NCBI GenBank assembly: GCA_018060885.1
Contig: JAGOVF010000020.1
Location: 1-35,844 of the forward strand
Direction: 5' to 3'
DNA from: Oligoflexales bacterium
GTDB lineage: Bacteria > Bdellovibrionota_B > Oligoflexia > Oligoflexales > JAGOVF01
DNA length: 35,844 nucleotides
Position numbers and translations under genes: made by a program. Within the stretch, counting starts at the first letter, position 1; every line of letters starts with the position of its first letter. Below the pieces are notes generated by a model, which was not told where the DNA came from, ran no database searches, and saw only the letters and a program-made list of their open reading frames with translations. Positions 24,787-35,587 of this stretch are shown here, piece after piece.

Positions 24787-24809
24787 AAAATGAATCTAAT
24801 CTAAAGAAA

Positions 24810-25091
24810 TTATTTATGTGCGTCTTTGCTTGGCGCAGCTTCGTGTCCTGCTTCTGCTTTACCAGCTTCGGCTTTCGCGGCTCCATGGTTCATGTCACCA
24901 TGTTTCATATTGCCATGGTCTTTCATTTCAGAACATTTTTCTGCTTTCCATCCACACTTAGTATCCGCTTTGCAAGTCTCTTCTGTACTATGTTGGCAAG
25001 CTTTCTTAGCTGTTTCTGTCGAAGATGCAAAGCCAGTCGCACTTACCAAAGCCATTACAAACACCGCTGACAATACTTTTACTAACAACAT
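24810..25091 (-). CDS. Small exported Cys/Met/His-rich protein, possible metal binder
   Basis: This 93-residue protein starts with a signal peptide (MLLVKVLSAVFVMALVSATG, cut near FAS). The mature part has four Cys in the pattern CQHSTEETCKADTKCGWKAEKC. This C-x7-C-x5-C-x-W-x4-C arrangement resembles short disulfide motifs in small periplasmic proteins. Next comes MKDHGNMKHGDMNHG, three repeats rich in Met and His that resemble copper- or silver-binding tails, and then an Ala/Glu/Lys/Gly/His tail. The ATG has an AAGGTGG site. It has its own promoter (25148-25176) and a palindrome just inside the transcript, so it is likely a regulated single gene. Metal binding is inference from composition; opposite-strand frames here are shadows. 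Confidence 0.75.
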   Translation of the reverse strand: MLLVKVLSAVFVMALVSATGFASSTETAKKACQHSTEETCKADTKCGWKAEKCSEMKDHGNMKHGDMNHGAAKAEAGKAEAGHEAAPSKDAHK

Positions 25092-25119
25092 AATTCCACC
25101 TTCTACAAAATAAATTCAC

Positions 25120-25295: not shown

Positions 25296-27416
25296 TTATG
25301 CAGTTTTTTCAAATTGGTTTTTGGCTTTCATTGGAACTGAAATAATAAATTTCGTCCCTTTATTTAAACGTGATTCAATGTCTATTTCCCCACCTAATGA
25401 TTTAACCGCGTCAAGAACCGCCTTCATACCGACTCCTCTACCAGACACATCACTAATTGTATCGGCGGTCGACAATCCATCTGAAAAGATGAAAGCGAAG
25501 GCTTGTTTGTCACTCAATAATTCAGCGGCTTTTTTGTCAATAAGCCCAAGTTTAATCGCTTTACTCAACACTTTTTGGCGATCTATACCGCGTCCATCGT
25601 CCTCTATTGTAATTAAAAATCCATGTCGATTTTCTATAAATTTAATTTCTAAGTTTCCTGTAGTCGGTTTTTCCCCGCGGTCCTCTGGCCGCTCAATGCC
25701 ATGATCAATAGAATTTCTAACCAAATGAATTAAGTTATTCATCAATTCTTTAATATTATTTGCATCTACTCTTAAATCTCCACCAGTAATTTTGAAATCT
25801 ACTTTTCTCCCCAAATCACCAGCAATTTTACCGATATAATCACCCAAAGGACCTAAAACTTGGCTCACTGGAGTCAGGCTCATATTTTCTAACCAAGAAT
25901 CAACTCTATCGCGCAAAGTCTCAAAACTCTTTAAATTATGAATTTGATTTTTAAAAGTTTGTAGCTCACTACGGCTTATCTGAACATTTTTTTCTGCTAT
26001 TTCACCATAACGTAGTCTAAACAACTCGAAATTGTTATCAAGAAAGGAAGAAAATGCAGTTTCTATTTCTTTTATGTGATTCTGGGAAATTTTATTTTGG
26101 TCTTCGATATGATGTATGAGCGATGCAACGCTTTCGATGCCATACGCTGCAGAATTGCCTTTTAGCGTATGTAACTCTCTACGCACCACTGACTCGTTAT
26201 CGGTATCAATAGCTTTTATAGCATCATTAATTCGTTCACTTGTTTCATTGATAAAATCACTAAATGAAGTGATATTTTGCAGAATTTTTACCACTGCTTT
26301 ATTTGAACGATTTTCGGCTTCAATTTCTTCAAGTTTCGTAATATCGGTGATGGTAAACAATATTTTTTCTACCTCGCCTTTTGCATTTCTCACTGTACTT
26401 CCATCTAATGCGATCGAGCGATTCTCGAGCTTAAAACGGCGCGGAATCTGAGCTAAGGTTGTCACTTCTGGCATAAAGTCATCGAACACTTGATCTACAC
26501 ATATTTTAAAGTATTCGGCGTTTGTTTTATTAAGACCTAATATATCTGCAAGAGCTTGCGACGCGAAGTTGTTTCTCGCAAGTAATTCTTCACAACTTCG
26601 ACTATAGCCATCTTGAACTTGTAAACTTTTATCAACGAGTAGCAATCCTGACTTTACGTTGTCCAAAATCATTTTTATAGTCGCGGTTCTTTCTGCGACG
26701 AGAGACTCTAGATTATTATTCATAATCGCTAAATCGGCGTTTTTTGCCTCTAACTCTTCAAATAATGTTTTTAATGCCACACGTGTTGTTTCTAAGGAAC
26801 TACCTAATTGCCCTATTTCGTCTGGCTGTGCCCAGAGAAAAGGCTGATCAAGAGATTTTTTTGCTAACATATTGGCTTGGTTTTTAAGTTTATTTATAGG
26901 ATCCAACAAACGTCGATTAATGAGAAGCAACAAGATAAAGATACATGCAATAGCTTGTATGGCCGAAAGTACGAACACCTCAATCATTTTTGCCTGTATC
27001 TCGCCTGCTACGCTAGCAAGAGAAAATTCGACCCGCACTAAGCCGATCTTTTCACCCTCGTTTGTCACTTCCTTCTCTACACTAATGACTTCCCCCCATG
27101 CGTCTTTCAGGGAAGTCCTTCGCGTGGAAACTTGCATTTTGAGCATCGAGAACAGTCGCGCTGACAATTCGAGTATCCTCTAGTATAGACTCAACAAGAG
27201 GAGCAGCCGCTTCAGGAGAAAGATCCCAAAGGGCTTTGGAGACGCCCCAAGCGCCAGAACATTAGTCGCACGCTGGTGTGCTGCCGCAGCATCTTGCAGT
27301 AGCTTTTCTTTTTGAGTTTTCAAAACATACCAAGTACCAAAACCCATGGGACCAAGCAAGCCAACCACGAGACCGCCAATCACCACAGTTCTTAAAGATT
27401 TATTTATAAATTCCAT
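25296..27416 (-). pseudogene. Membrane histidine kinase (HAMP-PAS-HPt-ATPase) interrupted by two compensating 1-base shifts
   Basis: Restored, this is a CheA-like hybrid sensor kinase of about 706 residues. It starts at ATG 27414-27416 (MEFINKSLRT, GGAG upstream). TM1 is about 10-32, a small periplasmic sensor follows, TM2 is about 146-167, then HAMP (to about 220), a coiled coil and PAS. An HPt domain has RRELHTLKGNSAAYG (phospho-His near 416). The ATPase has LVRNSIDHGIE, EDDGRGID and SGRGVGM. No CheW or receiver domain is present. The reading frame breaks at about 27225-27236 (a C run looks one base short; KPLWDLSPE expected) and returns at the six-C run 27092-27097 (one base too many). Between them the third frame holds the plausible sensor sequence ILEDTRIVSATVLDAQN. 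Without the correction a TAG at 27180-27182 stops translation. Sequencing error, true decay or homopolymer switching are all possible. Confidence 0.8.
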
Positions 27417-27608: not shown

Positions 27609-27692
27609 AATCCTATGACTTAAGACAATATGCCTGCTATCATAAACGCAGCGAAAATATTAAAAATTTATTCAGTGCTTTGGAGGTTAGCC

Positions 27693-28481
27693 GTGCGTAA
27701 AATTTCTTGTCTATTAACTACAACCGTTTTGATATCAAGCTATAGTTTTGTTACTCATGCCGAAAATATCACATTAAGAGCAGATACCTGGTGTCCCTAT
27801 AATTGTGAACCAAAAGATGCTCGCCCGGGTTATATGATTGAAATAGCAAAAGCGGCTCTAGAACCTGCCGGTCACAAAGTAGAATACGAGACTCTAAATT
27901 GGGCTCGAGCCATTGCAGATTCTCGCGCCGGGAAATTTTCAGGAATAGTCGGAGCAGCAAAATCAGATGCGCCTGATTTTATTTTCCCTGAAACTTCTCT
28001 TGGTACGTCTAAAAATTGCTTTTTTGCAAAAGCAGATGCGACTTGGTCTTTTAAAGACAAATCAAGCCTTGAGACTGCAAGCATCGGCGTCATAAAAGAC
28101 TATACATATGGCGATGAAGTTGACGACTATATAAAGTCAAATGCAAAAAATGCAAAAAATGCAAAAAAAGTTGATGTAGTTTCTGGAGACAACCCTTTAG
28201 AACTAAATATCAAAAAAGTTCAGATGGGTCGTGTCACAAGTTTATTGGAATCTGAAGCTGTTCTTAAAAACTATATGTACGTCAATAAACTTGCAGATTC
28301 TTCCTTCAAAAATGCAGGCTGTCTGAAAGATTCTGACGATCTATTTATCGCATTTAGTCCAAAACATCCAAAGGCAAAAGAATTCGCTAAACTTGTCGGT
28401 GATAAGGTTGTTGCCATGCGAAAAGATGGAAGTTTGAAAAAAATGCTTGAACAGTATGGTATTAATGATTGGGGAAAATAG
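27693..28481 (+). CDS. Periplasmic solute-binding protein (SBP_bac_3-like)
   Basis: A GTG start at 27693 is preferred over ATG 27630, because GGAGG lies six bases upstream and it yields a clean signal peptide (RKISCLLTTTVLISSYSF, cut after THA). The mature protein of about 240 residues has the family-3 pattern: ITLRADTWCPYNC, GYMIEIAKAALEPAG, then a LNWARAIADSRAGKFSGIVG segment and a C-terminal FAKLVGDKVVAMRKDG with LKKMLEQYGI. Such proteins bind amino acids or small acids for ABC uptake or for sensing. No permease or ATPase is adjacent. The divergent membrane kinase makes a sensory role plausible, but that is inference. A three-fold AKN repeat lies in the middle. Confidence 0.83.
   Translation: MRKISCLLTTTVLISSYSFVTHAENITLRADTWCPYNCEPKDARPGYMIEIAKAALEPAGHKVEYETLNWARAIADSRAGKFSGIVGAAKSDAPDFIFPETSLGTSKNCFFAKADATWSFKDKSSLETASIGVIKDYTYGDEVDDYIKSNAKNAKNAKKVDVVSGDNPLELNIKKVQMGRVTSLLESEAVLKNYMYVNKLADSSFKNAGCLKDSDDLFIAFSPKHPKAKEFAKLVGDKVVAMRKDGSLKKMLEQYGINDWGK
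28142..28168 (+). repeat. 9-bp tandem repeat (TGCAAAAAA x3) inside the solute-binding gene
   Basis: Three exact head-to-tail copies of TGCAAAAAA encode AKNAKNAKK. The unit is a multiple of three, so slippage would change length by three residues without breaking the frame. It falls in a surface-like Asn/Lys-rich loop. Confidence 0.7.
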
Positions 28482-34987: not shown

Positions 34988-35587
34988 TTAAAATTTCTTT
35001 CGAAGTATTCTTGCTTCAAACCCAAAACGGATTAAAAAAAGGAGCACAGCAAAAACCGCCGAGGGTTTCAGTTTTGATCCCTTGACATCACGCCACTTCT
35101 TTAGCGGAATTTCCCTAATTTGGTTCTGCAACAAACGCAATTCGATGCGCTTCGTATTGAGTAGGCGATATATCAGTTCAATATCAAAAGCCCATGCTGA
35201 GCAAAACGGGGTTTCAAGACTTTGGGTTAAAGCTTCCGTGCAGCGAAAAACTTTTGCTCCACATTGCGTATCGTAAACAGGTAATTGCAAGATGATAGAA
35301 GCAAGTGTTGCAAAGCCACGCCCCAAATAATGCCGAAGTAAGGTACGCTGAATATCATGACCTAAAAGTCGCACACGAGAACCAAAAACTGCTGTTACAA
35401 AAGTGTCTTTTTGAATAGCTTCTAAAATTACTAAAAATTCGTTTACCGGAGTCGCTAAATCAGCATCCCAATACCCTGTAATTTTTGCTCCACTTGCCAA
35501 AGCATACAGCATCCCCTGCCGCACAGCCTCGGCCTTACCTTGGTTACGTGTGTGCAGTCCGAGCTCGTTTGACACAAATATAGCCAA
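34988..35587 (-). pseudogene. GT2 glycosyltransferase lacking its N-terminus (next to an insertion sequence)
   Basis: The readable 199 residues match the later part of polyprenyl/dolichyl-phosphate glycosyltransferases: NQGKAEAVRQGMLYALASGA, then GYWDADLATPVNEF (the metal-binding DxD), FGSRV, and VYDTQCGAKVFR, ending with a hydrophobic C-terminal stretch. The expected N-terminal Rossmann half (a VVIPAYNEE-like strand and 60-70 residues) is missing. The reading frame meets a stop two codons upstream of the TTG at 35587, and insertion-sequence DNA follows. The simplest reading is truncation by the insertion. If the first half survives beyond the element, it lies outside the window. The gene is upstream of, and 21 bases from, the DUF6311-like gene. 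Confidence 0.7.

Follow-up and report, generated by a model that had tools for sequence, protein, structure and literature searches.

Two open reading frames that form one broken CheA-type histidine kinase gene in a draft Oligoflexales genome

Two open reading frames on the minus strand of a 35,844-nucleotide stretch from an Oligoflexales bacterium (assembly GCA_018060885.1, contig JAGOVF010000020.1; the whole stretch is referred to here as the window) belong to a single gene of about 706 codons for a transmembrane CheA-type histidine kinase, which the draft assembly shows broken by two opposite single-base shifts. The shifts lie about 150–170 nt apart in the sensor part of the gene, and the flanks on either side share one frame. 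We put the probability that they reflect a local consensus or assembly error in the sensor stretch at about 0.5, and we lean towards this explanation over a recent inactivation of the gene.

Architecture and frame structure of the gene

In the joined reading, a membrane helix is followed by a short periplasmic sensor, a second helix, a HAMP domain, a PAS-like linker, an Hpt domain and a CheA-like ATPase. Pfam matches this reading to HAMP, Hpt (residues 385–446) and HATPase_c (residues 561–696), and the family profile matches CheA structures at about 1e-63. The Hpt histidine, H415 of the joined reading, is invariant, the motifs RNSIDHG, DDGRGI and SGRGVGM are retained, and the N, G1 and G2 boxes of the CheA-like ATPase (P4) are present. 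Pfam gave no match to a CheW-like (P5) domain, and the protein stops after the ATPase. The position of Hpt before the ATPase, together with the profile match, thus identifies a membrane-anchored kinase that is CheA-like in its catalytic parts but, as it has no CheW-like domain, is not a canonical CheA. It shares with the CheA-type (class II) histidine kinases an Hpt phosphoacceptor upstream of a CheA-like ATPase, and differs from them in its membrane anchor, its own sensor and HAMP, the missing CheW-like domain and the broken frame in the assembly.

Frame 0 of the minus strand is open from an ATG at 27416 to a TAG at 27182–27180, then reopens and is open down to 25296. The first of the two frames (27180–27416) encodes the N-terminal membrane helix and the start of the sensor, followed by out-of-frame residues up to the TAG. 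The second (25296–27167, delimited from the frames, Pfam, the profile and the motifs) encodes the rest of the sensor, the second transmembrane helix, HAMP, the linker, Hpt and the CheA-like ATPase; the HAMP, Hpt and ATPase domains fall in the reopened 600-codon kinase half, and the catalytic half is intact, the remaining 1.9 kb being free of additional lesions. From about 27260 to 27092 the sensor is encoded outside frame 0. The sensor segment VSKALWDLSPEAAAPLVESILEDTRIVSATVLDAQNASFHAKDF lies in frame 2 (27098–27246, minus strand, from the coding model, the homologue alignment and the sensor profile), and frame 2 is itself stopped by a TAG at 27084–27082, just beyond a G6 run (C6 on the plus strand) at 27092–27097.

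Relative to the ancestral reading, the upstream shift is one base short and the downstream shift one base extra. The downstream lesion is at or near the G6 run, where the initial annotation had placed an extra base; both the frames and the switch to frame 0 at 27097 in the frame-switching model described below agree with this. The same annotation put the upstream lesion at about 27231–27236, but it cannot be pinned there. The frames, the model boundary at 27260 and homologues that align from before the Trp codon give an interval of 27229–27260, and any position from the Trp codon (27226–27228) to about 27260 fits, with no run longer than four bases in that stretch.

Ancestral frame of the sensor segment

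We trained a codon-periodic coding model on about 239 kb of long open reading frames from the same genome, with the window excluded. Across the 149 nt segment this model places frame 2 ahead of frame 0 by 16.4 nats, a lead matched by none of 70 stop-free alternative-frame windows in other long open reading frames of the genome (2472 tested). A frame-switching coding HMM, likewise trained without the window, was run over a sample of about 390 kb of stretches that includes the window and excludes one stretch consisting of N only (L058). With a frameshift cost of 8 nats it switches at 27260 and 27097, and at a cost of 12 or more it does not call them. At a cost of 8 nats there are 47 frame-change calls in the whole sample (0.12 per kb), and the HMM scan alone is therefore modest evidence.

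Homologues provide the second test. The first 209 residues of the joined protein have matches in eight genomes elsewhere in the phylum, each in one open frame and free of stops, and the best sensor matches (L028, L037, L029 and L040) remain aligned across the middle segment and its W-D motif. A sensor profile was built from these four sequences of other genomes and no others. It gives the joined protein 80.6 bits, frame 0 read straight through 50.2 bits, and the highest-scoring of 2000 middle-segment shuffles 61.1 bits. Judged from these alignments and scores, homology settles the ancestral frame, and the middle segment reads as genuine ancestral sensor sequence. The earlier proposal that one gene is hidden as two open frames is thus borne out by two independent tests, the coding model and the sensor profile. 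The restored protein aligns with its homologues uninterrupted through the middle segment; none of the sensor homologues lacks that segment and follows the frame containing the TAG, which is the pattern that would have spoken against the proposal.

Pfam holds no family for the sensor. The best full-length kinase matches (L003 to L006) have different sensors and are uninformative about the segment. A scan of genome contigs with the kinase half recovered no close relative, and an alignment-based scan gave distant matches only, mostly to the CheA-like ATPase. The closest kinase of the same family, L011, runs off its contig before the sensor is reached, and a search of the rest of that genome did not find the sensor half. 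A search of the organism's own genome for a second copy of the kinase found none, leaving one copy. In another genome (L007), a homologous kinase has a TAG and a TAA in close succession where the match begins, at positions that are Glu in relatives; these stops are near a contig end and are not counted as evidence of decay.

The homologues also bear on whether the two shifts might be read through by the ribosome. Programmed double frameshifting, −1 and then +1, would be allowed by the directions of both changes, but the sensor homologues in other genomes all have a single open frame and we know of no gene with both shifts 150 nt apart. We rejected this explanation, to which we give almost no weight.

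Origin of the two shifts

The gene is open over the rest of its 2.1 kb and keeps all its catalytic motifs, and the two indels are confined to about 170 nt, as expected from one badly read stretch. In the living cell the kinase gene would then most likely read straight through as one frame, and its product would pass a signal from the sensor through HAMP to the ATPase and on to phosphorylation of the protein's own Hpt histidine. In the draft consensus, two opposite single-base errors within about 160 bases of the sensor would make the gene appear as two frames; one poor read or thin coverage would be the likely source. The draft state of the assembly supports a local error: it comprises 266 contigs, one sampled contig has a 100-N gap, and the contig that carries the kinase ends in a truncated glycosyltransferase gene.

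That glycosyltransferase (34988–35587 of the window, minus strand) is 199 aa long and lacks about 60 N-terminal residues, including VDDGS, that are present in its roughly 260-aa homologues. No matching frame for the missing N-terminus was found in the 250 nt up to the window end, and the short gene reflects either truncation or misjoining of sequence where the contig ends.

The assembly is not frameshift-prone in general. At a cost of 12 nats the HMM calls six frame changes in 387 kb, and one of these (L044:1060) is in a gene which, from its sequence, we take to be an IS3-type transposase. A frame shift is expected in transposases of this type. Most genes of the window have full-length family matches, and the two G8 runs described below, both in unbroken genes, likewise speak against a generally poor assembly.

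The alternative to which we give most weight, albeit somewhat less than to a local error, is that the organism carries both indels and that the gene is a young pseudogene. Its frame is broken relative to its homologues, the opposite signs of the shifts would be coincidental, and the product would be a 78-residue fragment, perhaps with a restarted kinase half. Elsewhere the assembly is clean in frame, and relatives carry many similar kinases, so losing one would be easy; these points favour inactivation. Against it stand the remaining 1.9 kb, which have not decayed further, and the coincidence that neutral decay would require to place two opposite indels so close together. The locus resembles the frameshifted pseudogenes and consensus indels seen in draft genomes in having single-base indels in a gene that is otherwise normal and whose relatives are intact; unlike them, it has two close indels of opposite sign, so that its flanks share a frame.

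The initial annotation described the two shifts as compensating, which is misleading as biology. The in-frame TAG at 27180–27182 spans the ancestral Leu-Glu codons of SILED, and the change of frame alone is enough to create it. It blocks a full-length protein despite the second shift, so we rejected the idea that the second indel rescued the complete protein; selection for such compensation does not explain the pair of shifts. A literature search for compensating frameshifts in pseudogenes found nothing.

If the indels are real, translation might instead end at the TAG at 27180 and restart just downstream to give a membrane-bound, CheA-like kinase that has lost its sensor. In-frame starts are available at 27167 (TTG), 27146 (ATG) and 27137 (ATG), 13–43 nt past the TAG, and these match the kinase frame only with the extra base, that is, in the G6 state. 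However, no strong ribosome-binding sequence is evident ahead of any of the three, this layout is seen in no homologue, and we regard such a split gene as improbable.

Phase variation, in which changes in the length of the G6 run turn the sensor on and off, is similarly doubtful and was rejected as an explanation. The downstream lesion does coincide with a homopolymer, and a frameshift at a short C/G run is reportedly found in a sensor kinase of Bordetella pertussis, a resemblance to the present locus. There one tract switches the gene; at the present locus a single tract is not enough to restore it. Tracts of a single nucleotide can vary within coding genes (PMC4746626), and phase variation by frameshift has been published for a two-component gene of B. 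pertussis (Stibitz 1989, as cited in PMC4746626). In a phase-variable gene the length of one tract alone turns the gene on; at this locus the upstream lesion is in no run above four bases and outside the tract, so a change in G6 alone would leave that lesion in place and the protein still broken. With only six bases the tract is short, and the homologues have no frame break here. Two G8 runs in the same genome (L061:4338 and L069:19547) sit inside intact housekeeping genes, HflX-like and AroB-like respectively, which also argues against switching. These runs are unusually long for the genome, and no G/C runs of seven were seen in the sampled stretches. Of the three causes first suggested, assembly error and a decaying gene are thus both live, with the former preferred, and on/off switching is not supported.

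Neighbourhood and implications

A divergently oriented gene for a family-3 solute-binding protein (27630–28481, plus strand) adjoins the kinase in the window. Near 28140–28168 it contains a nine-base unit repeated three times in tandem, which encodes NAKNAKNAK, and a divergent solute-binding gene was not found next to the kinase homologues that we fetched. Downstream of the kinase, at about 24790–25100 on the minus strand, is a gene for a small, Met/His/Cys-rich protein that looks secreted and, from its composition, may bind metal.

For annotation, the two frames should be handled as a single CheA-like transmembrane kinase, and their separation, without read support, should not be taken as a switch. 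If the indels are real, the locus would be a further case of recent sensor loss, in a bacterial group whose relatives hold many related kinases.
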